Assembly (NCBI GenBank): GCA_009720755.1 | Contig: WNKV01000002.1 | Coordinates: forward strand, 372,001 to 436,000 | Source of the DNA: Rhodoplanes serenus | GTDB lineage: Bacteria; Pseudomonadota; Alphaproteobacteria; Rhizobiales; Xanthobacteraceae | Reading direction: 5' to 3' | Length of the DNA stretch: 64,000 nt | Shown here: one piece after another, positions 31,900 through 53,989 of the stretch | Position numbering within the stretch: the stretch's first letter is position 1 | How the letters are laid out: each line of letters starts with the position of its first letter | Notes under the pieces: model-generated | The model's input: the letters and a program-made list of their open reading frames with translations, nothing else | Told to the model about the DNA's origin: nothing | The model's database searches: none | Translations under genes and position numbers: made by a program

Positions 31900-31974
31900 G
31901 CGGCGGTTAGAGCCCGGCACGGGCGGCCGCGCAAGAGGTGCCTGGGGCGGCTCGGGGCTGCCCGGCGTGGGCGC

Positions 31975-32901: not shown

Positions 32902-33858
32902 TTACGGCGGGGCCGCTGGGGCGCCGCGCTCGACCGGGGCTGCCGGAATGCCGCCGAAACGGGCGTGGACGCTCGCGCCGGCCCGCGGCAGCGGCCCGTT
33001 GGAGGTCTCCAGCATCTGCATGAGATGCGCCTCGGTCTCGGCCCAGCACAGCCGGTAGATGTCGCGGCACAGCGCCCGCGCCCGGTGGCCGGGCCAGTCG
33101 TCCGGCAGGAGCTGCCGCGGCAGCGCCGGGTCGCGCAGCTGGACCCGGCGGAACTCGTGCATCAGCAGCGTGCGGACCAGGAAGCATTGCTCCGGATCGC
33201 GCTGCGCGGCGCTCTGCATGGCTCGCGCCACGCTGCGGAAGCGGGCGATGAAGCTCTGGTACTCGGCCGCGACGGCGCCGAGGTTCCAGCTGCGGTCGAC
33301 CAGCTCCTTCAGGGGGCGGCCCGACAGCGTCCCCAGCGTTCGCGCCTGCATGATCACGACCTTGTCGCGCAGGCCGGCGTTCTCGAGAATGTCGAGGAGC
33401 GCGTCGGATTGCTCGAACGGATGCGCCAGGATGCCGGGCGCGATGGCCGCGTAGCCCGCCCACAGCAGCTCCTTGCGCACCGCCGGCGTCAGCACGTCGC
33501 CGGGCGGCGCCACCACGATCTGCCAGTCGCCCGTCCAGGTGTCGCACGGCGCCTCGTAGATGCGGCGGAAGGCGACCTCGAAGCGCCGCCGCCCGGTGGC
33601 GGTGAGACCGTAATAGCTGCGCCGCCCGATCTGCTCGGACGCCAGCCACTTCTCGCGCGACAGGCGGAACACCGAGGTACGCACCGCCCGGGCGTTGAGC
33701 CCGAGCGGCTCCACCAGTCGGATGAAGCCGCCCAGCCAGACCGTGCCGCCGAGCGGCGCGATCATGTCGCCGTAGATGGTGATGATCAGTGACTTGGCCC
33801 GCAACGGGCGATCGGCCAGCTGGGTCTTGATCCACTGGCTCAGCAGGCGACTCTTCAT
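32902..33858 (-). CDS. paaX: PaaX-family phenylacetyl-CoA-responsive repressor
   Basis: A 318-residue transcriptional repressor of the PaaX family. The N-terminal winged helix includes RAKSLIITIYGDMIAPLGGTVWLGGFIRLVEPLGL and RAVRTSVFRLSREKWL; the central domain has the characteristic RRSYYGLTATGRRRF and TWTGDWQIVV, and the C-terminal part LVRTLLMHEFRRVQLRDPALPRQLLPDDWPG is diagnostic. In E. coli the effector is phenylacetyl-CoA, which is also the first intermediate of the Pad pathway encoded upstream. It is the last gene of the unidirectional pad-liv block, 78 bases after livK. The ATG at 33858 gives the standard N-terminus. Confidence 0.93.
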   Translation of the reverse strand: MKSRLLSQWIKTQLADRPLRAKSLIITIYGDMIAPLGGTVWLGGFIRLVEPLGLNARAVRTSVFRLSREKWLASEQIGRRSYYGLTATGRRRFEVAFRRIYEAPCDTWTGDWQIVVAPPGDVLTPAVRKELLWAGYAAIAPGILAHPFEQSDALLDILENAGLRDKVVIMQARTLGTLSGRPLKELVDRSWNLGAVAAEYQSFIARFRSVARAMQSAAQRDPEQCFLVRTLLMHEFRRVQLRDPALPRQLLPDDWPGHRARALCRDIYRLCWAETEAHLMQMLETSNGPLPRAGASVHARFGGIPAAPVERGAPAAPP

Positions 33859-33872
33859 GGGGCCAGTGTAGA

Positions 33873-33904
33873 GCGAATTCCGATCCGGTCGAATCGGAAT
33901 TCGC
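33873..33904. promoter_or_regulatory. Perfect 12-bp inverted repeat upstream of paaX
   Basis: GCGAATTCCGAT and ATCGGAATTCGC face each other around CCGGTCGA, 14 bases before the paaX start and 32 after livK. It could be a PaaX operator for autoregulation, or a member of a dispersed inverted-repeat family, since a similar arrangement (AGCAGGATCC...) occurs at 18,265. No T-run follows on the minus strand. Confidence 0.45.
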
Positions 33905-33936
33905 GCTCCCATCTGGCCCGGTCCTCGGTCGATCGG

Positions 33937-35082
33937 TCAGTCGATCAGCACCCAGTCGCCGTTACGCACCTCGAGCATCCGGAAGGCCGAGAGATCGAGC
34001 CCCATATGGTCGGTCGGCGACATGGTGAAGCGGCCGCCGGCCCCGACATGATCCTTGGTCTGCTCGATGGCGTCGCGGACCTTGGCCTTGTCGGTGCTGC
34101 CGGCGCGCTCGATCGCCGACACCACGATGCTCAGCGCGTCGTGGGCATGGCCGCCGAAGGTCGAGACATCCTCCTTGAAGCGCTCCGTGTAGGCCTTGGT
34201 GTAGCCCAGCGCGACCGGCTTCTGCGGGTCCTCGTCCGGCAGCTTGGCGGCGACCAGCAGCGCCGCGGCCGGCAGGCGGACGCCCTCGGCGGCACCGTCG
34301 GACAGGCGGATGAACTCCTCCGACGCCACCCCGTGGGCATGATAGACCGGCAGGCTGAGGCCGAGCATCTTGGCGTTCTTGTTGACGATCGCCGGCCCCT
34401 GGCCGAGCCCGAAGACGAACAGCGCCTGGACGTCGGCCTTGCCGCGAATGGTGGTGAGCTGCGGCGTCATGTCGGTGTCCTTGGGGCCGTAGGTCTCGTT
34501 GGCCACCAGCGTGATCCCGAGCCGGGTCGCCGCCGCCTCGCTCTCCTTGCGGCCGGACTGGCCGAAGCCGCTCGTCTCCGACAGGAGGGCGATACGGGTG
34601 AGGCCACGCTTCTTCATGTCCTCGAACACGCGCTCGGCCGCCATGCGATCGGTGTGCGGTGTCTTGAACAGCCACTTCTTCACCGGATCGACGATGACCA
34701 CGCCGCCCGCCAGCGAGACGAACGGAATGCCGGCGCGCTCCACCGCCGGCACCATCGACATGGTCGAGCCCGTCGTCGTGCCGCCGATCAGCACGTCGAT
34801 CTTGTCGTCCTCGATCAGCCGCTTGACGAAGCCGTTCGCCTTGCTGGCGTCGGACCCGTCGTCGTAATGCACGAGCTGGAGCGGCCGTCCGAGGACGCCG
34901 CCGCGCTGGTTGATCGTCTCGACATAGAGCTGGAGCGTCTTCAGCTCCGGGTCGCCGAGAAACGCCGCCGGCCCGGTGACCGAGAGGATCGACCCGATCC
35001 TGATCGGCTCGGCGGCGCCGCCTGGTGCCGACAGCCCGAAACACATCGCGGCCGCCGCGATGATCGTCTGCAATCGTCTCAT
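33937..35082 (-). CDS. livK: Liv-type ABC transporter substrate-binding protein
   Basis: A 381-residue periplasmic binding protein of the Peripla_BP_6 type. A signal peptide is visible (MRRLQTIIAAAAMCFGLSAP, then GGAAEP). The mature protein starts IRIGSILSVTGPAAFLGDPE, followed by YVETINQRGGVLGRPLQLVHYDDGSD and LIGGTTTGSTMSM, typical of LivK-like receptors used also for aromatic acids. Together with livHMGF it forms a complete importer. Its position between padJ and paaX suggests phenylacetate or a related aromatic acid as substrate rather than leucine. The ATG at 35082 follows GGGAGGGAC. Confidence 0.9.
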   Translation of the reverse strand: MRRLQTIIAAAAMCFGLSAPGGAAEPIRIGSILSVTGPAAFLGDPELKTLQLYVETINQRGGVLGRPLQLVHYDDGSDASKANGFVKRLIEDDKIDVLIGGTTTGSTMSMVPAVERAGIPFVSLAGGVVIVDPVKKWLFKTPHTDRMAAERVFEDMKKRGLTRIALLSETSGFGQSGRKESEAAATRLGITLVANETYGPKDTDMTPQLTTIRGKADVQALFVFGLGQGPAIVNKNAKMLGLSLPVYHAHGVASEEFIRLSDGAAEGVRLPAAALLVAAKLPDEDPQKPVALGYTKAYTERFKEDVSTFGGHAHDALSIVVSAIERAGSTDKAKVRDAIEQTKDHVGAGGRFTMSPTDHMGLDLSAFRMLEVRNGDWVLID

Positions 35083-35129
35083 GCGCAGTCCCTCCCTTGC
35101 CCCCACAGGGTCGTGCCCCGTGTTCTGAT

Positions 35130-35960
35130 TCAGAGTCCGAGATAGGCTTCACGAACCCGCTCGTTGTAGAGCAGCTCCTTGCCGTTGCCCGACAGGACGA
35201 TCTCGCCGGTCTCGATGACGTAGCCGCGGTCCGCGATGGCGAGCGCCGCGTGGGCGTTCTGCTCGACCAGCAGGATCGTCATCGCCTGCGCCCGCAGCGC
35301 CACGATGGCGGCGAACACCTCCTCGACGAGGCGCGGCGCCAGGCCCATGGAGGGCTCGTCGAGCAGCAGCAGGCGCGGGCGCCCCATCAGCGCCCTCGCG
35401 ATCGCCAGCATCTGCTGCTGTCCGCCCGACAGGGTGCCGGCCGGCAGTCGCGCGCGCTGTCGCAGGATCGGGAACATCTGATACATGCGCTCGATGTCGT
35501 CGGCGACGGCGTCGTGATCGCGGCGCCCATAGGCGCCGAGAACGAGGTTGTCGGCGACCGACAGCGGGCCGAACACCCGCCGGCCCTCCGGCACATGGCA
35601 CAGCCCGAGGCGCACGCGCCGGTCCGGCCGCAGCGTCGTGATGTCGTCGCCGTCGAACACGATGCTGCCGGCAGTGGCCCGCTGCACGCCCGAGATGGTC
35701 CGCAGCAGGGTGGTCTTACCGGCCCCGTTGGCGCCGACCAAAGCGACGAGCTGGCGCCGGCCGACCACCAGGTCGACGCCGCGTAGCGCCGCGATGCGGC
35801 CGTAGTGGCTGCCGAGCCCGCGGACCGACAGGAGCGGCGCCTCCACGGCCGCTGCGATGCCGTCGCCGGCCCCGTGCGGGCTCGCCGAGGACGTGGTGAC
35901 CGCCATCGCGGCCGCCGTCGTGGTGCCTGTCGCGACCGTCGTGTCCCTGGCGGTGCTCAT
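35130..35960 (-). CDS. livF: Liv-type ABC transporter ATP-binding protein (LivF-like)
   Basis: A 276-residue ABC ATPase. Walker A GANGAGKTTLL, the Q-loop region, the signature LSGGQQQMLAIARAL and Walker B LLLLDEPSMGLAP are all present, with the LivF-type end VREAYLGL. The first 40 residues are a low-complexity Thr/Ala/Ser extension not found in typical LivF; a second in-frame ATG at codon 19 could be the real start. The annotated start overlaps the livG stop (ATGA). It pairs with LivG as the ATPase heterodimer of the putative aromatic acid importer. Confidence 0.92.
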   Translation of the reverse strand: MSTARDTTVATGTTTAAAMAVTTSSASPHGAGDGIAAAVEAPLLSVRGLGSHYGRIAALRGVDLVVGRRQLVALVGANGAGKTTLLRTISGVQRATAGSIVFDGDDITTLRPDRRVRLGLCHVPEGRRVFGPLSVADNLVLGAYGRRDHDAVADDIERMYQMFPILRQRARLPAGTLSGGQQQMLAIARALMGRPRLLLLDEPSMGLAPRLVEEVFAAIVALRAQAMTILLVEQNAHAALAIADRGYVIETGEIVLSGNGKELLYNERVREAYLGL

Positions 35961-36718
35961 GCGGCGGTCCCGAGATAGGCGGCGATCACCTCCGGATCGG
36001 CGCGGATGTCGCGTGCCGTTCCTTCGGCCAGCCGCTTGCCGTAGTTGAGGACGAGAATGCGATCCGAGATGCTCATCACCATCTTCATGTCGTGCTCCAC
36101 CAGCACCACGGTGATGCCGCTGTCGGCGATCTCACGGACCAGAACGGCGATCTCCGCCGTCTCTTTGGGGTTGAACCCGGCGGCCGGCTCGTCGAGGAAG
36201 AGGATGCGCGGCGTCGCCGCCAGTGCCCGGGCGATCTCCAGCCGCTTCAGCCCGCCATACGACATGCTGGCGGCCGGCACATCGAGCTGATCGCCGAGAC
36301 CGACCCGGGCCATCAGCGCCGCGGCCCGCTCGCGCAATGCCGCGTCGGCCCGGCGCACCGCGGGGAACCGCAGCATGCCCTTGATCAGGTTGCGATCGAG
36401 CGACAGATGGCCGCCCACCATGACGTTCTCGATCGCCGTCATGTTCATGCAGATCTGGAGGTTCTGGAACGTCCGCCCCATGCCCAGGCGGGCGAGCGCG
36501 TGGGGCGGCAGGCTGGTCACCGGCTGGCCGCCGAGCCGGATCTCGCCGACACAGGGCGTGTAGATGCCGGTGATCAGGTTGAACAGCGTCGTCTTGCCGG
36601 CGCCGTTCGGCCCGATCACCGCGTAGACGACGCCGGGCTCCACCGCGAAGCTGACATCCTGCACGGCGCGCACGCCGCCGAAGGTTTTCGACAGGCCGGA
36701 CACTTCGAGAAGCGCCAT
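35957..36718 (-). CDS. livG: Liv-type ABC transporter ATP-binding protein (LivG-like)
   Basis: A 253-residue ABC ATPase. Walker A GPNGAGKTTLFNLITG, the LivG-specific GMGRTFQNLQIC segment, signature SYGGLKRLEIARAL, Walker B ILFLDEPAAGFNP and the H-loop VVLVEHDMKMVM can be read. The C-terminus ends EVIAAYLG as in family members. Start and stop both form ATGA overlaps with livM and livF, so the three are translated as one coupled unit. Confidence 0.94.
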   Translation of the reverse strand: MALLEVSGLSKTFGGVRAVQDVSFAVEPGVVYAVIGPNGAGKTTLFNLITGIYTPCVGEIRLGGQPVTSLPPHALARLGMGRTFQNLQICMNMTAIENVMVGGHLSLDRNLIKGMLRFPAVRRADAALRERAAALMARVGLGDQLDVPAASMSYGGLKRLEIARALAATPRILFLDEPAAGFNPKETAEIAVLVREIADSGITVVLVEHDMKMVMSISDRILVLNYGKRLAEGTARDIRADPEVIAAYLGTAA

Positions 36719-37647
36719 CACCGCCCCCATCCGATCTTGGCCGCGAGGGTCGGCACCAGGCCCTTCGGCAGGAAGATCATCGACACGATGAGAATGACGC
36801 CGAACGCGACGGTCTCCCATCCCTCGATGGTCGCCAGGGCCTGAGGCAGGGCGGTGAGCAGCACGGCGCCGATCACCGACCCGAACACCGACGCCATGCC
36901 GCCGACGATCACCATGGTCAGCAGCTCGACCGAATGGAAGAACTCGGCACAGTTCGGCGTGACGAAGCCCACATAGTGGGCGCTGAGGCTGCCCACGATG
37001 CTGGCGAAGAACGCCGACAGCGCGAAGATGGTGACCTTGTAGCGGGTCACGTCGACGCCGACGACCTGCGACGCCACCTCGGAGCCGTGCAGCGCGCGCA
37101 GCGCACGGCCGAACGGCGAGTCGATCAGGTTCTGGCACGCCCACACGCTGAACAGCAGCAGGCCGGCCAACACCCAGTACCATTCCCGCTCGCCGCCGAT
37201 CTCGAACCCGAAGGCGGCGAGCGGGGGCACCGGCATGCCGTCCGGACCGCCCGTGTAGGTCGCCTCGTTGCGGATCACGATGGAGATGACGATGCCGAGA
37301 CCGAGGGTCGCCATTGCCAGGTAATGACCGCGCAGCCGGAAGATCGGCGGCGCGATGGCGAGCGCCAGCAGCGCCGCGGCGACTGCGCCGGCCACGAGCG
37401 CGGCCAGCGGCGACCAGCCGAAATGCGTCGTCAGCACCGCCGATGCGTAAGCCCCTATGCCGAAGAAGCCGGCATGGCCGAGGCTGATCTGGCCGGCGAA
37501 GCCGATCAGCAGGTTCAGCCCCAGCACGACGATCGCGTTGATCGCCATGCGGTTGACCACGTCGAAGTAGAAGGCGTTCGGCAGCGCCAGCGGCAGGGCC
37601 AGCAGGATCGCCGCGAGGACGAGGAGACCGATGCGTGCGCGCCTCAT
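36718..37647 (-). CDS. livM: Liv-type ABC transporter permease (LivM-like)
   Basis: A 309-residue permease with about nine hydrophobic segments. The family motif NLLIGFAGQISLGHAGFFGIGAYASA lies near residues 44-69, and RLRGHYLAMATLGLG and FGRALRALHGSEVASQVVGVDVTRYK follow, the last being the cytoplasmic loop that contacts the ATPases. It overlaps livH (start) and livG (stop) by four bases each. Confidence 0.94.
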   Translation of the reverse strand: MRRARIGLLVLAAILLALPLALPNAFYFDVVNRMAINAIVVLGLNLLIGFAGQISLGHAGFFGIGAYASAVLTTHFGWSPLAALVAGAVAAALLALAIAPPIFRLRGHYLAMATLGLGIVISIVIRNEATYTGGPDGMPVPPLAAFGFEIGGEREWYWVLAGLLLFSVWACQNLIDSPFGRALRALHGSEVASQVVGVDVTRYKVTIFALSAFFASIVGSLSAHYVGFVTPNCAEFFHSVELLTMVIVGGMASVFGSVIGAVLLTALPQALATIEGWETVAFGVILIVSMIFLPKGLVPTLAAKIGWGR

Positions 37648-38519
37648 ACCCGCTCCGTCGTCTTGGGGCCGAGCAGGCCGCGCGGCATGAAGAACAGGAT
37701 GACGAAGATCAGCACGAACGGCACCGCATCCTTGTAGGCGGACGACACGTAGCCGGCGGTGAGCGCCTCGATCACGCCGACCAGAAGCCCGCCGATCACC
37801 GCGCCCGGCCCGGACCCGAGGCCGCCCACCACGGCAGCGACGAAGCCCTTGAGGCCCAGCATGATGCCGACGTCGTAGGACGTCATGGTGATGGGCGTGA
37901 GCAGGATGCCGCCGGCGGCCCCGATGGCGGCGGCCAGCGCGAAGCTGACCAGCAGCACGCGCTGCGTGTTGATGCCGACGAGCTGCGCCGCCAGCGGATC
38001 GACCGCGGTGGCGAGAATGCCCTTGCCGGCGATGGTGCGGCTGAAGAACAGCCAGAGCGCCACCACGATCACCGCCATGGAGCCGAGCACCCACAGGCTC
38101 TGCGGGGCGAGTGCGGCGCCCGCGACCGCGATCGGGGTGGAGCCGGAGAACGCCGGGAAGGTGGCGGCCCCCTTGCCGAACCAGACCTGGACCAGCCCGC
38201 GCACCACCAGCGACGCCCCGATGGTGATGATGATCAGGCTCTCGACGCCGGCCCCCTTGGCCGGCTCGATGGTGAGCTTCTCGATCACGACGCCGGCGAC
38301 GGCCGGGATCAGCAGGGCGAGCAGGATCGCCACCGGCAGCGGCAGGCCGCTGGCGAGGAACACCACTGTCAGGATGCCGCCCAGCATGATGAACTCGCCC
38401 TGGGCGAAGTTGATGACATGGCTGGCGTTGTAGATGAGGGTGAAGCCGAGCGCCGCCAGCGCATAGGTGGCGCCGACGGTGAGGCCGGAGAAGACGAACT
38501 GGAGAAGCTGCGCGAGCAT
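37644..38519 (-). CDS. livH: Liv-type ABC transporter permease (LivH-like)
   Basis: A 291-residue permease with about eight transmembrane segments. YALAALGFTLIYNASHVINFAQGEF near residues 19-43 is the LivH hallmark, and ATAVDPLAAQLVGINTQRV is the ATPase-contact loop. It begins 33 bases after padJ on the same strand, so the importer is probably transcribed with the phenylacetate genes. The livM start overlaps its stop. Confidence 0.94.
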   Translation of the reverse strand: MLAQLLQFVFSGLTVGATYALAALGFTLIYNASHVINFAQGEFIMLGGILTVVFLASGLPLPVAILLALLIPAVAGVVIEKLTIEPAKGAGVESLIIITIGASLVVRGLVQVWFGKGAATFPAFSGSTPIAVAGAALAPQSLWVLGSMAVIVVALWLFFSRTIAGKGILATAVDPLAAQLVGINTQRVLLVSFALAAAIGAAGGILLTPITMTSYDVGIMLGLKGFVAAVVGGLGSGPGAVIGGLLVGVIEALTAGYVSSAYKDAVPFVLIFVILFFMPRGLLGPKTTERV

Positions 38520-38552
38520 CGGAAATCCTCGGCACGAGTGGAGCCCGACGGC

Positions 38553-39869
38553 TCACTTCGGGCGCTTGTCGACGACGCGACGGGCCTTGCCGACCACCGT
38601 GCGCTCGATGGTGTCGGTCTCGACCACATGGACCGCGGCCGAGATGCCGATCATCGACTTGATGTGGTGCGCCACGTCGCGGCCGATCGCCTCGCGGTCG
38701 TCGGCGGAGTAGCGCCGTGACAGCTCGGGCTGGAGCTCGACCAGCACGTCGAGCCTGTCGAGATGGCCGTCGCGCGAGATCTGGAGCTGATACTGGCCGC
38801 AGAGATTGGGGTTGCGCAGCAGGATCTCCTCGATCTGGGTCGGGAACAGGTTGACGCCGCGGATGATCAGCATGTCGTCGGAGCGGCCCGACACCTTGGC
38901 CATGCGGCGCATGCTGCGCACGCTGCCGGGCAACAGCCGCGTCAGATCCCGCGTCCGATACCGGATGATCGGCAGCGCCTCCTTGGTCAGCGTGGTGAAC
39001 ACCAGCTCGCCTTCGGCGCCGTCGGGGCGCGGCTCTCCGGTCAAGGGGTCGATGATCTCGGGATAGAAGTGGTCCTCCCAGATATGCGGGCCGTCCTTGG
39101 TCTCGATGCACTCGCAGGCGACGCCGGGACCCATCACCTCGGACAGGCCGTAGACGTCGACCGCATCGATGCCGAGCCGTGTCTCGATCTCGCGGCGCAT
39201 CTCGTTGGTCCACGGCTCGGCGCCGAACAGGCCGAGGCGCAGGCTGGTGTCGTCCGGCCGCAGATTGTTGCGGGCCAGCTCGTCGGCGAGCGTCAGCGCG
39301 TAGGAGGGCGTGCACAAGAGCACGGTCGGCCGCAGGTCGCGGATGAGCTGGACCTGCTTCTCGGTCTGGCCGCCCGACATCGGGATCACGGTGGCGCCGA
39401 GGCGCTCGGCTCCGTAGTGGGCGCCGAGCCCGCCGGTGAACAGCCCGTAGCCGTAGGAGTTGAGGATGATGTCGTCGGCGGTGGCGCCGGCGGCCCGCAG
39501 CGACCGCGCCATCAGGCTCGCCCACACCGCGATGTCGCGCTCGGTGTAGCCGACCACGGTCGGCTTGCCGGTGGTGCCCGACGAGGCGTGCAGGCGGACC
39601 ACATCGCGCATCGGCACCGCGAACATGCCGTACGGATAGGTCTGGCGGAGATCGTCCTTGGTGGTGAACGGGAAGCGGGCGAGGTCGGCGAGCGACCGCA
39701 GGTCCTCGGGCGTGATCCCGATGCGGTCACACTTGGCTCGATAATGCGCGACATTGTCGTAGGCGTGCCGCAGCGTCCAACGCAGCCGGTCGAGCTGCAA
39801 CGCCTGCAATTCGTCGCGGCTCGCCGTCTCGATCGGCTCGAGCCCGCTCGTTGTCACTGCCATGTCCAT
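38553..39869 (-). CDS. padJ: Phenylacetate-CoA ligase (anaerobic type)
   Basis: AMP-forming ligase that activates phenylacetate to phenylacetyl-CoA, the entry step of the pathway. The 438-residue protein has the P-loop LHASSGTTGKPTVVGYT (94-110), YGLFTGGLGAHYGAERLGATVIPMSGGQTEKQ, the adenylate motif VYGLSEVMGPGVACEC, and the hinge and C-terminal lid beginning GRSDDMLIIRGVNLFPTQIEEILL. This is the PaaK fold. The name padJ is given from its position after padI, as in denitrifying Azoarcus/Aromatoleum; PaaK of aerobic pathways is sequence-wise close, so the assignment rests on context. Confidence 0.93.
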   Translation of the reverse strand: MDMAVTTSGLEPIETASRDELQALQLDRLRWTLRHAYDNVAHYRAKCDRIGITPEDLRSLADLARFPFTTKDDLRQTYPYGMFAVPMRDVVRLHASSGTTGKPTVVGYTERDIAVWASLMARSLRAAGATADDIILNSYGYGLFTGGLGAHYGAERLGATVIPMSGGQTEKQVQLIRDLRPTVLLCTPSYALTLADELARNNLRPDDTSLRLGLFGAEPWTNEMRREIETRLGIDAVDVYGLSEVMGPGVACECIETKDGPHIWEDHFYPEIIDPLTGEPRPDGAEGELVFTTLTKEALPIIRYRTRDLTRLLPGSVRSMRRMAKVSGRSDDMLIIRGVNLFPTQIEEILLRNPNLCGQYQLQISRDGHLDRLDVLVELQPELSRRYSADDREAIGRDVAHHIKSMIGISAAVHVVETDTIERTVVGKARRVVDKRPK

Positions 39870-39970
39870 TGTATCCCCCCTGTAGGCGAGCGCCTGCGGC
39901 CCGCGTCGCCGACGCGGCCGGCCTCGCCGTGTTTGCCTGTTCTCGTCGTTGGTCGGAGCCTCGGCGTGCC

Positions 39971-41341
39971 TCAGCGCGCCGCGGCTCCTGCTGCAATCTG
40001 CGCGATGACGGCGCGGTTCTCCTCGACCTTCGCCTGAATGTGTCCGATCTGATCGTCCGTCAGATGCCTGAACCGGCCCATGGCCTTCAGATAATCGGCA
40101 ACGGGACGCGGCGATTCGATCGGGTGGGTGAGATGCAATCCGTCTTGCGGCGTAAACTCCCAGAGCATCACGAAATTGGTCTCCACCGCCGTGCGGGCCA
40201 CCGCGATGTTGCGCTCGGTCGGAAACCGCCAGCCGGTGGTGCAGGGCGAGTAGACGTGCAGATAGGCGAAGCCGTGCTTCGAAGCCGCGATCGCCTTGTC
40301 GAGCTTGTCGTAGAAGTCCTGCATGAAGGCCGTGGAGGCGGTCGCCACATAGGCGCAGCGGTGCCCCACCATCAGCAGCGGCAGGTTCTTGGCGTCCTGG
40401 CTCTTGCCCTTGGTCTCCCGTCCCACCGGGGTGGTCGAGGTCCAGGCGCCGTAGGGCGTGCAGCTCGATCGCTGCATGCCGGTGTTCATGTAGCCCTCGT
40501 TGTCGATGACGAGGAACAGGATCTCCTCGCCGCGCTCGGCCGCGCCGGAGAGCGACTGGAAGCCGACATCGGAGGCGCCGCCGTCGCCGGCGATCGCCAT
40601 CGCGGTGATGTCGCGCCCGACGCGCTTGTACTGGCGCTTGACGCCCGCCAGCATGGCGGCCGTGTTGGTCAGCAGCGGATGGAACACCGGCACCTTGGTG
40701 CCGGTGAGCCCGTTGTAGCCGACCGAGCCCATGCCGGGCACGCAGCCGGGCGGCGTCGCCAGCACGGTGTCGGGGCCGACGCGGCGCAGCGCGTGGCGCA
40801 TCACCAGCTCGCTGTTGCAGCCCTGGCAGCCGGCGAGGCCGGGCGCGAACAGATCCTCCCAGTCACCGACCTCGTTGTAGATGCGCGCGGTGGTGACATG
40901 GCGCAGCGCGCCGGTCGGGCAGGCGGCCACGCAGGCCGGCGCGCCGTCGCACATGTCGCACTTGGCGACGCGGCCGTCGGCCGGATCGGGCGCGATCCCC
41001 GCATAGGCGCAGCCGACGGTGCAGAGCAGGCAATCGACGCAGGTGTCGGCGTTGCGCGTGATCACGCCGGTCTCGACGTCCTTGGCGAGCGCGCCGGCCG
41101 GGCACACGGCGACGCAGCGCGGATCGCCGCACTGGCGGCACATCGCCAGCTCGAAGGACGCGGGGGCGCCGCCGTCGAGCGGCTGGCCGGCCGGCAGCAC
41201 GGCCGGCAGTACTTGAAGCCGGGCGCGAGAAATGTCGTCGCTGCCGCACTTGGCGGTGGCGCAGGCGCGCATGCAGTCCTGGCAGCCGTCGCAGCGGGCG
41301 GCCTCGAAGGCGATCGTGGCGTAGGCGTGCCCCATGGTCAT
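39971..41341 (-). CDS. padI: Phenylglyoxylate dehydrogenase, beta (TPP-binding) subunit
   Basis: Thiamine-diphosphate subunit of the NAD-linked enzyme that converts phenylglyoxylate and CoA to benzoyl-CoA and CO2. The N-terminal ~150 residues hold four [4Fe-4S] motifs: C17-x2-C20-x2-C23-x3-C27, CRQCGDPRCVAVCP, CVDCLLCTVGC and CDMCDGAPACVAACP. The C-terminal part is the 2-oxoacid:ferredoxin oxidoreductase beta domain, with the TPP motif AIAGDGGASDVG ... NEGYMNTGMQ. This ferredoxin-TPP fusion is characteristic of PadI. The ATG at 41341 is chosen because it overlaps the padH stop (ATGA); ATG 41335 and GTG 41347 are alternatives. Confidence 0.92.
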   Translation of the reverse strand: MTMGHAYATIAFEAARCDGCQDCMRACATAKCGSDDISRARLQVLPAVLPAGQPLDGGAPASFELAMCRQCGDPRCVAVCPAGALAKDVETGVITRNADTCVDCLLCTVGCAYAGIAPDPADGRVAKCDMCDGAPACVAACPTGALRHVTTARIYNEVGDWEDLFAPGLAGCQGCNSELVMRHALRRVGPDTVLATPPGCVPGMGSVGYNGLTGTKVPVFHPLLTNTAAMLAGVKRQYKRVGRDITAMAIAGDGGASDVGFQSLSGAAERGEEILFLVIDNEGYMNTGMQRSSCTPYGAWTSTTPVGRETKGKSQDAKNLPLLMVGHRCAYVATASTAFMQDFYDKLDKAIAASKHGFAYLHVYSPCTTGWRFPTERNIAVARTAVETNFVMLWEFTPQDGLHLTHPIESPRPVADYLKAMGRFRHLTDDQIGHIQAKVEENRAVIAQIAAGAAAR

Positions 41342-42585: not shown

Positions 42586-42591
42586 GACGCC

Positions 42592-43836
42592 TCAATCGTT
42601 CTCGTTGACCCAGATCGGCCCGTCGGGCACGTCGCCGCCGAGCAGCGCCGCGGTGCGCGCGATGACCGCGTGGAAGTGCTCCACCGTCAGGTCGGCGCCG
42701 GCGAGCCCGCCGATGAAGCTCGCCGTCGGCACCGGCCGGCCGAGCCGGTAGAGGACGCCGAGCAGCTCCTGGAACACCGGCCCGCAGTTCCAGCGGAAGC
42801 CGACCGAGCGGTCGACGACGCCGATGGCGCCGACGCCGGCGAGCGCCTGCGCCAGCGCCTCCACCGGGAACGGGCTGAAGGTCTTGATCTTGACGATGCC
42901 GACGCGCCGCCCGGCGGCGCGCGCCTCGTCGACCGCGTCCTTGGCGGCGCCCGTCATGCTGCCGAGCGTCACCAGCGCCATCTCGGCGTCGTCCATGCGG
43001 TAGCGCTCGACCAGCGGCGCGAAGGCGCGGCCGAAGCGCGCCGCATACTCGTCGTGCACCTCGGTGATGACGCGCAAGGCGTTCTGCATGCTGCGGCACT
43101 GGCCCTTGCGGTAGCGCAGGAACGCCGCCGGTCCCTTGCCGCCCGAGCCGCCGGTGAGCGGATCGACCGCCATCGGGCGCAGCGGATCGAGCGCCGCGTG
43201 CCAGTTGATGTTCCTCTCGCCCATGAAGGCGTCGACGCCGGCCTGATCGGGCAGGGTGACGCGCGCCGCCCCGTAGGACAGATAGTTGCCGTCGAGACAG
43301 ACATTGACCGGCAGCATCACGTCGCGATGCTCGGCGATGCGGAACGCCATGATGGTGGTGTCGAGCACCTCCTGCACGGTCTCGCAGTAGATCTGAATCC
43401 AGCCCGCCTCGCGCACCGTCATGGCATCCTGGTGGCCGCCCCACACCGATTGCGGCGTGATGCCGTCGCGGGTGACGAGCGCCATCACGATGGGCAGCCG
43501 CAGGCCGGGCGTGCGCCAATAGGGCTCGAACATGAAGGCGAGGCCGGGTCCGCAGGTGGCCGTGAAGGTGCGCCCGCCGGCGAGCGCGGCGCCCTGGAGC
43601 ACCGACAGCACCGAGTGCTCGCCCTCGGCGTCGACGATCTCGGCGTCCATCCGGCCGTCGGCGCAGAGCTTGGCCAGATGCTCGACCAGGCTCGACTGCG
43701 GCGTGATGGGATAGACCGACAGCATGTCGGGCCGCACCATGGCGACCGCGAGAGCGGCCGCCTCGTTGCCTTCGCAGACGATGTGGCGGGGCCGTGTGGC
43801 CGCCGCCGTGCCGGCTTCGCGGACCGCCATGGTCAT
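42592..43836 (-). CDS. padG: Phenylglyoxylate dehydrogenase, alpha subunit
   Basis: Alpha subunit of the 2-oxoacid:acceptor oxidoreductase complex. The 414-residue protein has VCEGNEAAALAVAMVRPDMLSVYPITPQSSLVEHLAKL near residues 19-56, in which YPITP is the family signature, then AEGEHSVLSVLQGAALAGGRTFTATCGPGL, and a C-terminal domain II beginning AEMALVTLGSMTGAAKDAVDEAR. It overlaps padF by four bases (ATGA) and ends 6 bases before padH. Confidence 0.94.
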   Translation of the reverse strand: MTMAVREAGTAAATRPRHIVCEGNEAAALAVAMVRPDMLSVYPITPQSSLVEHLAKLCADGRMDAEIVDAEGEHSVLSVLQGAALAGGRTFTATCGPGLAFMFEPYWRTPGLRLPIVMALVTRDGITPQSVWGGHQDAMTVREAGWIQIYCETVQEVLDTTIMAFRIAEHRDVMLPVNVCLDGNYLSYGAARVTLPDQAGVDAFMGERNINWHAALDPLRPMAVDPLTGGSGGKGPAAFLRYRKGQCRSMQNALRVITEVHDEYAARFGRAFAPLVERYRMDDAEMALVTLGSMTGAAKDAVDEARAAGRRVGIVKIKTFSPFPVEALAQALAGVGAIGVVDRSVGFRWNCGPVFQELLGVLYRLGRPVPTASFIGGLAGADLTVEHFHAVIARTAALLGGDVPDGPIWVNEND

Positions 43837-44135
43837 CCCGCGACCTCCTCGATCATGGTGATGGCGCGGTGCGGGCATTCGGTGGCGCAGATGCCGCAGC
43901 CCTTGCAGGTGGCGAGGTCGATGTCGAACCACGCCGGCCGCTCCACCACGCACTGCACCGGGCAGTAGAGCCAGCAAACCGCGCACTTGACGCATTTGCC
44001 GCGGTCGACCACCGGCCGCAGGCTGCGCCAGTCGCCCGGCTGCATGGGGTTCAGCGCAGTGGCGATCGGGCACAGATCGGCCGGCACGCCGTCGGCGGCC
44101 GGATCGCGCATCGGGTAGGCGCGACGCGCGCTCAT
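43833..44135 (-). CDS. padF: Phenylglyoxylate dehydrogenase, delta (2x[4Fe-4S]) subunit
   Basis: A 100-residue ferredoxin-like subunit of the complex. Two cluster motifs are present: C48-x2-C51-x2-C54-x3-C58 (GKCVKCAVCWLYCPVQC) and CKGCGICATECPHRA near residues 77-91. The N-terminal ~45 residues include LNPMQPGDWRSLRPVV, common in delta subunits of 2-oxoacid:acceptor oxidoreductases. It transfers electrons between the TPP subunit and the flavin subunit. Both ends overlap neighbours by ATGA. Confidence 0.93.
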   Translation of the reverse strand: MSARRAYPMRDPAADGVPADLCPIATALNPMQPGDWRSLRPVVDRGKCVKCAVCWLYCPVQCVVERPAWFDIDLATCKGCGICATECPHRAITMIEEVAG

Positions 44136-44704
44136 GCGGCGACCTCGCGATCGAGGTGGTGGATCTGCGTCTCGCGATAGCCGCGGCCGAGCGCCGCGAT
44201 GTTCTGGTCGAGGCCGGCGTCGCGGAACTCGGAGTCGGCCAGCGCCTGCTCGAGCGCCGCCAGCGACACGATGCCGGTGGTCCGGGCGAGCGCGCCGAGC
44301 ATCAGCGTGTTGGTGATCGGCCGGCGGAAGATCTCCATGGCGATGCGCACCGCGTCGATCAGCCCGACGGTGCGCAGACCCGCCGGCAGCGTCAGCTCGG
44401 CGAGCGCGCGCCCGCTGGTCTGCACCAGCGTGCCGCCCGACCGCATGCCGGCGAAGATGTCGACCGAGCGGCCGACCGTCGGGTCGATGCACAGCACGCA
44501 GTCCGGGTGCGTGATGTTGGTCATGCGCCGGATCTCGCGCTCGTCGGCGCGCACGAAGGCCACCACCGGGGCGCCGCGCCGCTCGAAGCCGAACGACGGG
44601 ATCGCCACGGCGTACTTGCCCTCGGCGACGAGCCCGGCGGCGAGCAGGCCGGCCGCCATCACGGCGCCCTGTCCTCCGCGTCCATGGAGACGAACCTCGT
44701 ACAT
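44132..44704 (-). CDS. padE: Phenylglyoxylate dehydrogenase, gamma subunit
   Basis: A 190-residue gamma subunit. The N-terminus VRLHGRGGQGAVMAAGLLA (4-22) is the CoA-binding family signature, followed by YAVAIPSFGFERRGAPVVAFVR, the core beta strands, and RRPITNTLMLGALARTTG near residue 128. It begins 57 bases after padD and is the first gene of the phenylglyoxylate dehydrogenase part of the operon. It overlaps padF. Confidence 0.93.
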   Translation of the reverse strand: MYEVRLHGRGGQGAVMAAGLLAAGLVAEGKYAVAIPSFGFERRGAPVVAFVRADEREIRRMTNITHPDCVLCIDPTVGRSVDIFAGMRSGGTLVQTSGRALAELTLPAGLRTVGLIDAVRIAMEIFRRPITNTLMLGALARTTGIVSLAALEQALADSEFRDAGLDQNIAALGRGYRETQIHHLDREVAA

Positions 44705-44760
44705 TCTTCCTCCACCCGCCTCCGGGTTTGCTCGTCGGGCGTCGTCGCCGTCCGGCTCGG

Positions 44761-45657
44761 TCACTGCGCCTTGGCGCGGGACCAGCCGGGCCGGGCGCCG
44801 ACGCCGGGGCGGCCGCTGCCGCGCGCCGGCGCCTGCGGCAGCGCGAAGCCCTGGGTCAGCGCGGCGCGGCCGATCAGCACGAACTTGAACCAGGCTCCGG
44901 CCACGACGGCGGCGGCACCGGCGAGCGCGACCGCGATCGGCCAGCCGAGCAGCGCGCCGGCGATGCCGAGGCCGATCGGCACCGCGTGCCCAACCCAGAC
45001 GAACGGAACGTCGATGGCATCGAATGCCTTGAGGGTGCCGACCGGGACGCCGACGCCGCGCAGGCTCTCGCGATAGCGCCGCCAGACGACCAGGCGCGCC
45101 ACCGCCAGGACCGCGAGCAGGACCCCGAAGGGCGTGAGCGCGGGCCAGATCAGCGCCGCCATGACGAGGAGGCCGGCCCCCTCGGTCACTCCGGTGGCGA
45201 CCACGAGGGCGGCGCACAGGCCGTGGCGCCACGCCGGAATGCCCTTCTGGTTGCGCAGGATGCGGCCCTGGGCATAGACGAGGCCGATGCCGGAGAGGCC
45301 AGCCAGCCAGATCGCCGCCGGCTGATCGAGCACGACGGCGGCAGCGCCGGCCGCGAACAGCAGGGTGGCGACCAGCGCCTCGCGCGTCATCCACGAGGTC
45401 GCGACGTTGCGGTACACGTTGAGGGCGCGCAGCGGCCGACCGATCTCGAGCCACACCGCCAGCAGCCCGAGCCCGACGAGCGCGAGACCGAGCACGATCA
45501 GCGACCGCAGGTCGACGCCGAGCGGCGAGGCGAGGGCGGTGGCGGCCAGCAGGCCACCGCCGGCGCCGCCGCAGATGAAGTTCGTCGCCGCCCGCGCGTC
45601 CCAGCTCGTCTGGCGACGCGGCGACATTCGATCGAGCGCTCGGCCGGATCGCTTCAT
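44761..45657 (-). CDS. padD: Phenylacetyl-CoA:acceptor oxidoreductase membrane subunit
   Basis: A 298-residue integral membrane protein with about eight hydrophobic segments, of the DmsC/NrfD-like class that anchors molybdo-iron-sulfur oxidoreductases and exchanges electrons with quinone. Features shared with this class are SWDARAATNFICGGAGGG at the start, WLEIGRPLRALNVYRN after the third segment, TSWMTREAL and GRILRNQKGIPAW. The C-terminus is a basic, Gly/Pro-rich cytoplasmic tail. It overlaps padC by four bases. The role as PadD is from gene order and subunit type. Confidence 0.88.
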   Translation of the reverse strand: MKRSGRALDRMSPRRQTSWDARAATNFICGGAGGGLLAATALASPLGVDLRSLIVLGLALVGLGLLAVWLEIGRPLRALNVYRNVATSWMTREALVATLLFAAGAAAVVLDQPAAIWLAGLSGIGLVYAQGRILRNQKGIPAWRHGLCAALVVATGVTEGAGLLVMAALIWPALTPFGVLLAVLAVARLVVWRRYRESLRGVGVPVGTLKAFDAIDVPFVWVGHAVPIGLGIAGALLGWPIAVALAGAAAVVAGAWFKFVLIGRAALTQGFALPQAPARGSGRPGVGARPGWSRAKAQ

Positions 45658-46301
45658 GTCTCGCTCCAGATGTAATAGATCGACGGTCCCGTCCCGAGAT
45701 CCTCGTGGACGCGGAAATGCCGTGCGCTCTCCAGTAGCTTCACCACGCCGCTGGTCGGATCGTTGATGTCGCCGAACAGCATCGCGCCCGAGATGCACGA
45801 GTTCACGCAGGCCGGCGTCACCTCGGGGTCGACACCGGGCGTCTGCCCGGTGATGGCGGCGCGGTCGATGCGCTCCTTGCAGAAGGTGCACTTGGTGGCG
45901 ACCGACAGGCGCCCCGGATCGGCCCGCGCCAGCTCGTGCGCCATCGGCACGCCATAGGCCCAGCGCGGCTCGTGCTGGATCGTACGGGCGTCGTACGGGC
46001 AGGCCATGATGCAGTTGGCGCAGCCGATGCAGACGTCGTAGTCGATGGTGACGAGGCCGTCCTCGCGCTTCTGCGTCGCCGTGGTCGGGCACACCTCGGC
46101 GCAGGGCGGCTCGGCGCAGTGCATGCAGGAGACTGGCAGGAAGGTGCGGCGGACATCCGGATACTCGCCCGACTCCTGATCGAGCACGCGGCGCCACTGG
46201 ACGCCGGGCGGCGTCGCGTTGGCGCTCTTGCAGGCGGCCGTGCAGGTCTGGCAGCCGACGCAGCGCCGCAGATCGATCACCATGACGTAACGCGGGCTCA
46301 T
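45654..46301 (-). CDS. padC: Phenylacetyl-CoA:acceptor oxidoreductase iron-sulfur subunit
   Basis: A 215-residue DmsB/PsrB-type subunit with four [4Fe-4S] motifs: CVGCQTCTAACKSANATP, CMHCAEPPCAEVCP, CIGCANCIMACPYDAR, and CTFCKERID with CVNSC. It should carry electrons from the molybdenum subunit to PadD. No twin-arginine signal is present, consistent with a complex on the cytoplasmic side of the membrane where CoA esters are available. Both ends overlap neighbours by ATGA. Confidence 0.92.
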   Translation of the reverse strand: MSPRYVMVIDLRRCVGCQTCTAACKSANATPPGVQWRRVLDQESGEYPDVRRTFLPVSCMHCAEPPCAEVCPTTATQKREDGLVTIDYDVCIGCANCIMACPYDARTIQHEPRWAYGVPMAHELARADPGRLSVATKCTFCKERIDRAAITGQTPGVDPEVTPACVNSCISGAMLFGDINDPTSGVVKLLESARHFRVHEDLGTGPSIYYIWSET

Positions 46302-49045
46302 GCGGCCGGCCTCTCCATGCGGCGCACCGCGACCCGGACGATGTCGGCCCCGGAGCCGGTCGCGTCGGTGAGCGCCAGCGTCATCGGCGCGATGGAGTTG
46401 AGGCTCGCCCGCTCGATGTCCTTGATGTAGGGGGTCGCCCAGTGGTCGAACTGGCCGACGATGACGAGGGTGTCGGGCCGCACGCCCTTGACCAGCGCGG
46501 CACGGCCGTAGGTCGCGCCGATATGCGAGCGCACCTCGACCGGATCGCCGTCACCGATGCCGAGCGTCGTCGCGGTGTCGACATGGATGATCACGCCGGT
46601 GTGGCCGCGCAGGTTCTCCGAGACCTCGTCCATCAGGGCGATGCTGGCATTGCCGCCGGAGTGGTACTGCATGCTCTTGGTGGTGAGGAGCCAGAACGGG
46701 AAGTCCTCGGTCCGCGCGCCCGCGGCGATCAGCGCCTGCTCCCAGCGGCCGGGCACGTCGTGCCAGTCGGGCAGTGCCGCATATTCGGCGAGCTGCTCGT
46801 CCCACCAGTGCATGTTCTGCTCGTGCAGGCGGTTGCGCAGCTCGCGCCCGATCCGCATGAGCCGCTCCTGATAGGGCAGCTCGTAGCGCAGGCCCTGCTC
46901 CTCCAGGGTCGGCGTCAGATACCAGCTTCGCCGCGACACCGGCACCTTGTAGAAGCCGTGCTGGCGGAACCAGTCGAGCCCGTGGGTGTCGCGTCCGTCC
47001 GACAGCGTGAAGGTGGCGGCGCGGCAGATGGCGTCCCAGATCCGTTCGGGCTCGGGCACTTCGGCCGGATCGAGGCGGACGTCGTAGCCCTCGCCCTTGA
47101 GCGGCGCGACGCCGGCGACGCCGCGGTTGAGCTGCTCCACATAGGCGGAGAGCAGCCCGGTGCGTCGCGCCAGCTCGGTGGCGATCCAGGTGAAGTCGCG
47201 CGCCTCGCCTTGCGGCTCGACTGCCTGCTGGCGCAGCACGACGCCGTGACAGTCCCAGAAGTGCTCCATGTACTTGGTGGCGCCCATGCGGATGAGCTGC
47301 GTCGACTCGAGGTCGGTCGCCTCCGGCAGCAGCAGGTCCGCCATGTAATTGGTCTCGTCGACCGTGTAGGCGAACGCCACCATGAACGGGAAGCGGGCGA
47401 TCGACTCCGCGAGCCGGCGCGTGTCCCAGAACGAGATCGCCGGGTTGGAGCGGTAGACGAACCACACGTCCGGATGGGTCGGCTCCGGCATCGGCCAGTC
47501 GGCCGGCCGCTCCTCCTGGAACATCCAGGCGAGTTGCGTCGGTCCCAGCGCCTGGCTCCAGCCGCCGTTGCGGCCGACGATCGGCACCAGGGTTCGATGC
47601 AGATTGCGCGTCGTCGGCGTCGCCTCCCAGCGCTCGCGGCTGGTGGGGTTGAAGTGCTGCACCATGAAGCCGTCGTCGCCCGGCTTCACCGAGAGGTGCC
47701 GGTTGTCGTGCGGGCGGTTGAGCCGCACCGTGGTGCCGAGAATGCCGCCGGGGTTCTCCAGGGCGCCGACCAGCATGGCGAGCACGGTGCGGGCCCAGCA
47801 GCATTCGTAGGCGCCCCAGCCGTTGTTGACCGACTTGCCGAGCGTCACCGCCACCGGGCGCAGCGGCATGGTGTGGCCGTCGATATCGATGGTGGCGCCG
47901 ATGCTGGCCGCCTCCAGATACTCGCCGGCGATGCGGCGGATGGTCTCCGCCGGCACGTCGCAGATCGCCGCCGCCCATTCGGGCGTGTAACGGGCGATGT
48001 GATCGCTGAGCGCCTGAAAGGCCGTCGTCCCCTCGACGCCGGCGTGGTTCACGCGCACCCTGTCGGCGTCCATCGTGACCGCGGTGGCGACGCGGAAGCG
48101 GCCCGCCACCGCCGGCACCGCGCGGGCCGTGTCGAACGCCACCGCGGCACGGCGCGTTTCGTCCCACACCAGCGGCTTGCCGGTCGCGCGGTCGCGCAGA
48201 TAGAGGCCGTTCGGGCCGACGAGATACGCGGAGGCGGTGCGGTCGCGCAGGAAGGGCTGGTCGAGCGCGGCGAGCCCGTGCTCGTGAATCAGCACGTTAA
48301 TGAGCGCGAACAGGAAGGCCGGATCGGTCTTCGGCCGGATCGGCACCCACTCGGCCGAGCAGGCGGCCGTGATGGTCAGGCTCGGCTCCACCTGCACTCG
48401 CTTGTAGCCGCGGATGCGGGCATCGGCGTGGCGGATGACGGCGGTCGGCCCGCCGGTGACCTCGACATTGGCGCCGCAGGCGATCACGTAGCGGGTGTTG
48501 GGCGTGTCGGCCGAGACCGTGAAGGCGCGGTGCCAGAACTCGCCGTAGAGATGCTCCGAGTGGGTGCATTTCACCCCCTGGCCGGAGCCGAAGCTGAAGT
48601 CGACCGGCCCCCATGCGGCGAGAAACGCCGGGAACGTGCCCATGTAGTTGGCGGGCGTGCCGCCGTGGCCGAAGCTGGCGGCGAGCCGCGGCAGTCCGGC
48701 CTGGTCGATCAGCCCGCCGGTGCGGACGGCCTTCAGGCGTTCGGCGATGGTGTCCAGCGCCTCGTCCCACGAGATCGGCGTGAAGCCCGGGTCCTCGTCG
48801 CGTCCCTTCTTCGGGTTGGTCCGCTTCATCGGGGTGCGGACGCGGTTGGGATTGTAGGTCTTCTGCACCAGGCCGTAGGCCTTGACGCAGGGGCGCCCGC
48901 GGCCCGGATGCACCGTCTCGGCGGCGAAGTTCGGCTCGATCTCGGTGGCGATTCCGTTCTCGACCTTGACGGTCAGGAAATCAGGACCGGAGACGCAATT
49001 GTAGCAGAAGGTCGGGACGCGCCTGACGGGCTCGTCTGCTGTCAT
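46298..49045 (-). CDS. padB: Phenylacetyl-CoA:acceptor oxidoreductase molybdopterin subunit
   Basis: A 915-residue DMSO-reductase-family catalytic subunit that oxidises phenylacetyl-CoA to phenylglyoxylate. The N-terminal cluster motif has Cys14, Cys17 and Cys53 but no third Cys of the usual C-x2-C-x3-C (CYNCVSGPD instead). The MGD-binding region has PISWDEALDTIAERL and ATDLESTQLIR, and VKCTHSEH supplies Cys160 as the likely Mo ligand. The C-terminal domain includes PFWLLTTKSMQYHS and GDPVEVRSHIGATYGRAALVKG. No Tat signal is seen. The ATG at 49045 follows a strong GGGAGGGGAGGAAG site; longer upstream readings are rejected. It is the first gene of the unidirectional pad-liv-paaX block. Confidence 0.93.
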   Translation of the reverse strand: MTADEPVRRVPTFCYNCVSGPDFLTVKVENGIATEIEPNFAAETVHPGRGRPCVKAYGLVQKTYNPNRVRTPMKRTNPKKGRDEDPGFTPISWDEALDTIAERLKAVRTGGLIDQAGLPRLAASFGHGGTPANYMGTFPAFLAAWGPVDFSFGSGQGVKCTHSEHLYGEFWHRAFTVSADTPNTRYVIACGANVEVTGGPTAVIRHADARIRGYKRVQVEPSLTITAACSAEWVPIRPKTDPAFLFALINVLIHEHGLAALDQPFLRDRTASAYLVGPNGLYLRDRATGKPLVWDETRRAAVAFDTARAVPAVAGRFRVATAVTMDADRVRVNHAGVEGTTAFQALSDHIARYTPEWAAAICDVPAETIRRIAGEYLEAASIGATIDIDGHTMPLRPVAVTLGKSVNNGWGAYECCWARTVLAMLVGALENPGGILGTTVRLNRPHDNRHLSVKPGDDGFMVQHFNPTSRERWEATPTTRNLHRTLVPIVGRNGGWSQALGPTQLAWMFQEERPADWPMPEPTHPDVWFVYRSNPAISFWDTRRLAESIARFPFMVAFAYTVDETNYMADLLLPEATDLESTQLIRMGATKYMEHFWDCHGVVLRQQAVEPQGEARDFTWIATELARRTGLLSAYVEQLNRGVAGVAPLKGEGYDVRLDPAEVPEPERIWDAICRAATFTLSDGRDTHGLDWFRQHGFYKVPVSRRSWYLTPTLEEQGLRYELPYQERLMRIGRELRNRLHEQNMHWWDEQLAEYAALPDWHDVPGRWEQALIAAGARTEDFPFWLLTTKSMQYHSGGNASIALMDEVSENLRGHTGVIIHVDTATTLGIGDGDPVEVRSHIGATYGRAALVKGVRPDTLVIVGQFDHWATPYIKDIERASLNSIAPMTLALTDATGSGADIVRVAVRRMERPAA

Positions 49046-49687: not shown

Positions 49688-50095
49688 ATGACTTCGACCT
49701 TGACCATCGGCGCCACGGCGACGCGCCGGATCGTGATCGACACGCCGCGCACCATCGACTTCCTCGGCGAGGCGCTGCGCGTCTACGCCACACCCGAGCT
49801 GGTGCGTGATTTCGAGGTGGCCTGCCGAGAGCTGCTGCTCGAACACATCGAGGCCGGTGAGGATTCGGTCGGCACCGGCATCAGCGTGTCGCATGGCGGC
49901 GCCACCCTGCGCGGCATGCCGGTCGACATCACCGTCACCGTCGCCCGCATCGAAGGGCGTCTCGTCACCTTCGATCTGGTGGCGAGTGACACGGTCGAGG
50001 AGATCAGCCGCGGCACCCACAGCCGCTTCGTCGTCGCGGTGGAGAAGCTGCGCAAGAAGGTCGCCGACAAGGCCGCGCGGGCCGCTGTGGCGTGA
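49688..50095 (+). CDS. FlK-like hot-dog acyl-CoA thioesterase
   Basis: A 135-residue single hot-dog-fold thioesterase similar to FlK (fluoroacetyl-CoA thioesterase). With a constant shift of seven residues, the FlK catalytic set that I recall (Thr42, Glu50, His76, Gly69, Arg120) is kept here as Thr35, Glu43, His69, Gly62 and Arg113; the motifs are YATPELVRDFEVA, GEDSVGTGISVSHGGATLRG and SRGTHSRFVV. The residue at the FlK Phe36 gate position is Ala29, so fluoroacetate selectivity is unlikely. Divergent from padB, it may hydrolyse phenylacetyl-CoA, benzoyl-CoA or a dead-end CoA ester to free CoA. The substrate is not known. Confidence 0.82.
   Translation: MTSTLTIGATATRRIVIDTPRTIDFLGEALRVYATPELVRDFEVACRELLLEHIEAGEDSVGTGISVSHGGATLRGMPVDITVTVARIEGRLVTFDLVASDTVEEISRGTHSRFVVAVEKLRKKVADKAARAAVA

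Positions 50096-51134: not shown

Positions 51135-53989
<2,855 letters not shown>

Follow-up and report, generated by a model that had tools for sequence, protein, structure and literature searches.

The pad operon and its gene products

In a 64,000-nucleotide (nt) stretch of Rhodoplanes serenus contig WNKV01000002.1 (positions 372,001 to 436,000; hereafter the window), we found what is, with a probability of about 0.88, an intact anaerobic phenylacetate (pad) module, horizontally acquired by a member of the Hyphomicrobiales whose genome carries photosynthesis genes and nirK. On the minus strand, from the padB ATG at 49045 to the paaX stop at 32902, translation gave 15 genes without internal stops in the order padBCDEFGHIJ-livHMGFK-paaX, i.e. 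the same collinear pad, Liv importer and PaaX genes that a model's earlier reading of the bare letters (the sequence-only reading) had listed. An ATGA overlap at almost every junction, as claimed there, was an overstatement. Seven of the 14 junctions have it, one is a TGATG and six are gaps (6, 33, 47, 56, 78 and 101 nt), and the genes form an operon-like array that is looser than first described. The array lies between a PrmA-like gene (30925-31920) and an isocitrate dehydrogenase gene (51135-53357). The proposed Hyphomicrobiales host agrees with FtsZ, which matches a Rhizobium record at 84.8% over 53% of the query, and with the mur-fts region, whose best matches in the plasmid collection are rhizobial.

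All five subunits of phenylglyoxylate dehydrogenase scored above the cut-offs of their own NCBIfam models, namely PadE (gamma, 44132..44704, with an alternative GTG start at 44764; NF045762, 322.8 bits, cut-off 300), PadF (delta, ferredoxin-like, 43833..44135; NF045763, 155.8, cut-off 150), PadG (alpha, 42592..43836; NF045764, 790, cut-off 700), PadH (epsilon, the pyridine-nucleotide/flavin subunit with PF07992, 41338..42585; NF045765, 706.9, cut-off 475) and PadI (beta, with thiamine pyrophosphate and ferredoxin domains, 39971..41341; NF045766, 821.1, cut-off 700). The same applies to PadJ (PaaK), the phenylacetate-coenzyme A (CoA) ligase (38553..39869; TIGR02155, 691.4, cut-off 646.3). PadB, PadC and PadD matched no dedicated NCBIfam model and were therefore named by identity and position to the pad locus of Aromatoleum evansii KB740 (L019). 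They comprise the molybdenum catalytic subunit of phenylacetyl-CoA:acceptor oxidoreductase (PadB, 915 amino acids, 46298..49045; PF00384/PF01568; 72% identity), a 4Fe-4S subunit (PadC, 45654..46301; a Pfam Fe-S protein; 71%) and a DmsC-like membrane anchor (PadD, 44761..45657; PF04976, 27.7 bits, cut-off 22.3; 50%), i.e. molybdopterin-family, 4Fe-4S and anchor subunits that correspond to their A. evansii counterparts in identity and order. Identities to L019 for the remaining proteins were 69% (PadE), 71% (PadF), 76% (PadG), 62% (PadH), 76% (PadI) and 72% (PadJ), and the comparison of PadB, PadH and PadI with Aromatoleum proteins that had been suggested as a check came out in favor of the assignment. 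The names given in the sequence-only reading hold throughout, through curated cut-offs (PadE-J and PaaX), identity and order (PadBCD) or Pfam families (liv). The phenylacetate-CoA ligase, PadBCD and the five-subunit PadEFGHI, which together mark the Pad pathway at the gene level, are encoded side by side. According to passages of PMC5109826, this pathway has been demonstrated in Thauera aromatica K172, A. evansii and A. aromaticum EbN1.

A tetrathionate-, polysulfide- or thiosulfate-type reductase, the different substrate class against which the sequence-only reading had asked to be checked, was rejected for PadB, whose scores lie far below the respective cut-offs (PhsA 166.1 of 694, ArrA 116.1 of 1600 and TtrA 34.9 of 1750 bits). 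In an alignment of 42 sequences (the window and 41 loci), Cys160 of PadB is kept in all 42. Its counterpart in the polysulfide/thiosulfate reductase 2vpw is Cys173 (PDB alignment), which we take to be a molybdenum ligand. Of the four cysteines in the usual N-terminal motif, only three (14, 17 and 53) are present, each likewise in 42 of the 42 sequences.

Downstream pathway and metabolic context

We infer that phenylacetate is taken up by the Liv-type ATP-binding cassette importer, after which PadJ would convert it to phenylacetyl-CoA. The membrane-anchored PadBCD, with molybdenum and Fe-S centers, would then oxidize the alpha-carbon, taking the oxygen from water and passing the electrons to quinone, as is known from Thauera. 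The resulting phenylglyoxylyl-CoA would be hydrolyzed to phenylglyoxylate, a sequence of steps also described in passages of PMC9765128. PadEFGHI would convert phenylglyoxylate, NAD+ and CoA to benzoyl-CoA with decarboxylation, and BcrABCD, Dch, Had and Oah, encoded on another contig, would reduce and open the ring.

The search for benzoyl-CoA reductase elsewhere in the genome, another check proposed on sequence alone, recovered a cluster of Had, Oah, Dch, BcrC, BcrB, BcrA and BcrD on contig 51, all above their cut-offs, and the benzoyl-CoA pathway genes whose absence had been named as counterevidence are present. This Bcr gene set is presumably of the Thauera kind and not of the Rhodopseudomonas palustris kind. 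BoxB was not found in the genome search, which thus gave no sign of the aerobic box route for benzoyl-CoA. Also near bcr (locus L004, 4472-6919) lies a pair of genes that by eye resemble glutamate synthase beta and NAD(P)H-ferredoxin reductase and that might feed electrons to benzoyl-CoA reductase.

After the bcr set come genes that, judged by eye, encode a Liv importer and a CoA ligase, and then 4-hydroxybenzoyl-CoA reductase (alpha subunit above cut-off), and two further aryl-CoA-ligase-like genes are found beside bcr (by eye). Together with the lack of a curated substrate-specific model for PadB, this would fit a module mainly for another arylacetate, e.g. 4-hydroxyphenylacetate, leading via 4-hydroxybenzoyl-CoA and the reductase beside bcr to benzoyl-CoA. 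Against five phenylglyoxylate dehydrogenase subunits and a phenylacetate-CoA ligase, all above cut-offs, we consider this quite unlikely, and phenylacetate is kept as the probable substrate.

PaaA belongs to a separate cluster for the aerobic paa route (locus L095, 5703-12349), in which a second PaaX is encoded. Inspection by eye assigned to this cluster a Liv importer of its own and a TetR-like gene that overlaps the PaaX gene immediately ahead of paaA. Passages of PMC13186573 describe PaaR and PaaX as occurring together in several groups. Furthermore, the reaction-center L and M proteins and NirK are encoded in the genome, which makes phototrophic or nitrite-linked growth plausible. By eye, neither a nitric nor a nitrous oxide reductase was recognized in the 20 kb around nirK, no dedicated search having been made for these or for nitrate reductase.

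Distribution and origin of the module

Within the genus, padI was found in one of six genomes and BcrC in two (E 1e-40), one of the six genomes being 58% complete. In samples of the order and of the phylum, which by their nature miss members, PadI was limited to the window's own genome (one of 397 genomes at E 1e-100, and one of 398 above the cut-off with three more at E 1e-60 below it, respectively). Scanning genome contigs with one PadI sequence, an approach limited to close relatives, yielded 79 pad loci, many of whose stretches end at contig ends. Five of these are alphaproteobacterial, with padI identities of 61-83%, namely Rhodopseudomonas pseudopalustris DSM 123 (83%), a Hyphomicrobiales metagenome-assembled genome (MAG; 80%), Rhodoblastus sphagnicola (77%), Magnetospirillum SS-4 (62%) and an alphaproteobacterial MAG (61%). 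Two named Hyphomicrobiales species with padB-J are among the five, and Rhodopseudomonas pseudopalustris and Rhodoblastus sphagnicola are phototrophs. The rarity implied by the sequence-only reading is thereby borne out only in part. PadI is confined to few of the sampled genomes, but these five records have it and one of them, Rhodopseudomonas pseudopalustris, has the same 15-gene order; in this host group the operon is rare but not unique. In the open-access library searched, no paper joins phenylglyoxylate with Rhizobiales, and none on pad in phototrophs was recognized among the matches listed there (titles and abstract starts).

The locus of Rhodopseudomonas pseudopalustris (L016) resembles the window in the complete gene order, including liv and the 3' paaX, in protein identity (78% for PaaX and 63-86% for the padB-J and liv products) and in a thioesterase gene divergent from padB. 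Unlike the window, it has an FNR-type box without mismatches 237 nt 5' of padB, and its fetched stretch contains no FdhD. Two betaproteobacterial loci, L017 and L018, both from metagenome-assembled records, also share padB-J, livHMGFK and paaX in the same order, the padB-J identities of L017 being 69-82% except for PadD (51%). A. evansii L019 has the same padBCDEFGHIJ order (50-76% protein identity) with a PaaX-type regulator and FdhD near padB, but the accessory genes are placed differently. In L019, paaX is found upstream of fdhD-padB in divergent orientation, and the thioesterase gene is 3' of padJ. In the window, paaX comes after the liv genes, and it is the thioesterase and fdhD genes that diverge from padB. 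The fetched L019 stretch contained no livHM reaching 60% identity. Over all 79 loci, livH and livM at or above this identity occur in 13, and a PaaX match with an E-value of 1e-8 or lower in 33. The linkage of transporter and regulator to pad, which had been singled out from the sequence, is real but not special to the window, as pad is linked to Liv and to PaaX in betaproteobacterial loci, too.

In a 64-tip FastTree of joined PadE, PadG, PadH and PadI sequences, the window clusters with Rhodopseudomonas pseudopalustris and Rhodoblastus sphagnicola (support 0.997), apart from Magnetospirillum. This Hyphomicrobiales cluster nests in a 33-tip clade (support 1.0) whose record titles are mainly betaproteobacterial. 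The topology suggests horizontal transfer into Hyphomicrobiales as the simplest reading, with a donor not pinned to one lineage. A plasmid origin was rejected, since none of 389 matching plasmid records has one place covering 80% of PadI.

Several observations weigh against an intact, transferred phenylacetate module. The similarity of PadD to L019 is modest (50%), and the branches that tie the Hyphomicrobiales clade to individual betaproteobacteria have weak support (0.776 and 0.514). The GC content of 32902-49045 (0.703) is nearly that of the remainder of the window (0.702), and composition therefore gives no support for a recent transfer. Lastly, no convincing FNR box was found 5' of the window padB, the best candidate having two mismatches, a score equalled by 78 of 200 shuffles. 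The last point, together with an aerobic paa cluster that has its own PaaX, would suit an operon that is intact yet cryptic or seldom expressed, phenylacetate being used by the aerobic route only. As none of the 15 genes has an internal stop and the matching bcr genes have been retained, we regard this as very improbable and continue to favor a functional anaerobic module.

Transporter genes, paaX and regulatory regions

The liv genes follow padJ on the minus strand and encode two permeases with PF02653 (livH, 37644..38519, 84% identity to L016; livM, 36718..37647, 86%), two ATPases (livG, 35957..36718, with PF00005 and PF12399; livF, 35130..35960, with PF00005) and a periplasmic binding protein (livK, 33937..35082, with PF13458). 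The paaX-type repressor gene (32902..33858) ends the array; its product scores 297.4 bits with TIGR02277 (cut-off 264.55) and is 78% identical to the Rhodopseudomonas pseudopalustris and 60% to the A. evansii protein. Its start was set at 33858, where homologs begin aligning, the first ATG of the open reading frame being at 33912. Repression by PaaX would be relieved by phenylacetyl-CoA.

Within the 78 nt that separate livK from paaX is a perfect inverted repeat with 12-bp arms and an 8-bp spacer (33873..33904), 14 nt upstream of the paaX ATG, and paaX may therefore be a separate transcription unit. With the pattern taken from the sequence itself, the repeat had one match in the window and none in 100 shuffles. 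It is a possible operator or may mark the livK/paaX boundary, operator and terminator both having been considered; in 33700-34100, no promoter- or terminator-like consensus was found. Other inverted repeats lie between livK and paaX in L016 and L020, and a hairpin-like stretch in L017 (by eye), while inspection by eye of the regions 5' of paaX in L016, L017, L018 and L020 revealed no common motif.

Upstream of padB, the window has a 32-bp inverted repeat (49095-49126; 14-nt arms with one mismatch, 4-nt spacer) 50-81 nt from the ATG, and the padB leader contains a short tandem repeat (49207-49243; 2.8 copies of a 13-bp unit). An FNR box with at most one mismatch was found upstream of the start of padB or a padB-like gene in 19 of 47 loci (mean 4.0 and maximum 9 in 50 shuffles), the scan reaching up to 1.5 kb, and only 971 and 1171 nt in L018 and L070. 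We accordingly keep FNR control of pad as a possible feature of relatives, not of the window. Passages of PMC9765128 name padR as a regulator tied to the pad cluster.

The divergent thioesterase and FdhD genes

Two plus-strand genes, a thioesterase (49688..50095) and fdhD (50146..50997), lie just outside the coordinates covered by the sequence-only reading, which missed them. The former, divergent from padB across a 642-nt gap, encodes an FlK-type hotdog thioesterase of 135 amino acids (PF22636, 95.8 bits, cut-off 27) with no NCBIfam match at E 1e-30. Its T35, E43 and H69 align with the residues of FlK (PDB alignment; 3p3f and 3kv7) that we take to be catalytic, and in an alignment of 33 rows the positions hold Thr in 31 (two gaps), Glu in 32 (one gap) and His in 33. 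FlK and the window protein thus share family and triad but not context, the latter being encoded beside genes for anaerobic arylacetate catabolism, and fluoroacetyl-CoA hydrolysis is not expected from this context. FdhD, a molybdenum-cofactor sulfurtransferase by family (PF02634; TIGR00129, 210.6 bits, cut-off 140.9; NF001943 at 169.2 under its cut-off of 269), has a single match in its own genome, i.e. the copy beside padB.

A thioesterase model built from pad-locus sequences matches 32 of the 79 pad loci, in placements that vary from divergent from padB to directly upstream of padB or padC and 3' of padJ. Among 42 loci with padB present and at least 1.2 kb upstream, counting genes anywhere in the fetched stretch, FdhD occurs in 28, the thioesterase in 19, one or both in 38 and neither in four (L068, L071, L072 and L075); copies outside the fetched stretches are possible, which cuts both ways for linkage. 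At a small control group of six padI loci without padB or padC at 55% identity and with at least 7.9 kb upstream, the thioesterase was found in none and FdhD in one (L052, with a padB-like gene at 28%).

Some loci depart from this pattern. Five (L060, L062, L067, L073 and L074) have padC-D-E-F-G-H-I and a nearby FlK thioesterase with no padB match in the fetched stretch, which includes at least 4.8 kb upstream of padC, so that padB may sit elsewhere in those genomes. In L073, a complete-genome record, padJ and padC adjoin, leaving no room for padB. L063 and L076 look similar but have less than 2 kb upstream. In another four (L052, L084, L089 and L091; one betaproteobacterial and three deltaproteobacterial-type records), padEFGHI is found near padB-like (27-28%) and padC-like (37-42%) genes, possibly distant relatives of PadBC, with FdhD at L052 and L091.

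With respect to function, the thioesterase might assist or perform the hydrolysis of phenylglyoxylyl-CoA, and FdhD might mature the PadB molybdenum cofactor, both steps being less certain than those above. In papers naming phenylglyoxylyl-CoA, the passages found among the matches listed assign no gene to its hydrolysis, and the word thioesterase has no occurrence in the main texts of PMC9765128 and PMC5109826. The joint proposal, i.e. that the pad-linked thioesterase hydrolyzes phenylglyoxylyl-CoA, that FdhD sulfurates the PadB molybdenum and that a module so extended passed from betaproteobacteria into several purple phototrophs, is tentative and, in our estimate, rather unlikely to hold in full. 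If true, PadB would be a cysteine-ligated, sulfido-molybdenum alpha-carbon hydroxylase, closer to formate dehydrogenase than to ethylbenzene dehydrogenase.

The odds are about even that both neighbors are incidental or protective instead, the thioesterase rescuing stalled CoA esters, FdhD serving formate dehydrogenases and PadBCD itself releasing CoA. Neither gene is universal at the 42 padB loci. In passages of PMC7497051, PaaY of the aerobic pathway is a thioesterase protecting the CoA pool, and the contexts in which open-access papers mention FdhD with phenylacetyl-CoA were, in the passages matched, bam genes (PMC13101534) and a formate dehydrogenase cluster (PMC2842291), the latter with fdhD in Cupriavidus necator. 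This explanation is opposed by the several different arrangements of these genes relative to pad, by their near absence from the control loci, and by the 72%, 80% and 77% identity of the window thioesterase to the copies in L016, L017 and L027, respectively, as compared with approximately 37% to two paralogs in its own genome. On balance, CoA release by PadBCD with the thioesterase as rescue only is somewhat likelier than a dedicated hydrolysis role.

Implications

The pathway itself is known, while the possible part of the two helper genes looks new, and it is these linked genes that give the locus its extra interest. The thioesterase and FdhD are specific, testable candidates for releasing CoA and for maturing the PadB cofactor, respectively, matters that padBCD alone leave unsettled. 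A pathway characterized in denitrifying betaproteobacteria is here extended to a bacterium that encodes photosynthesis together with aerobic and anaerobic phenylacetate routes, and with all of these in one genome, a single strain could serve to compare how phenylacetate is used in the light, with nitrite and under aerobic conditions.

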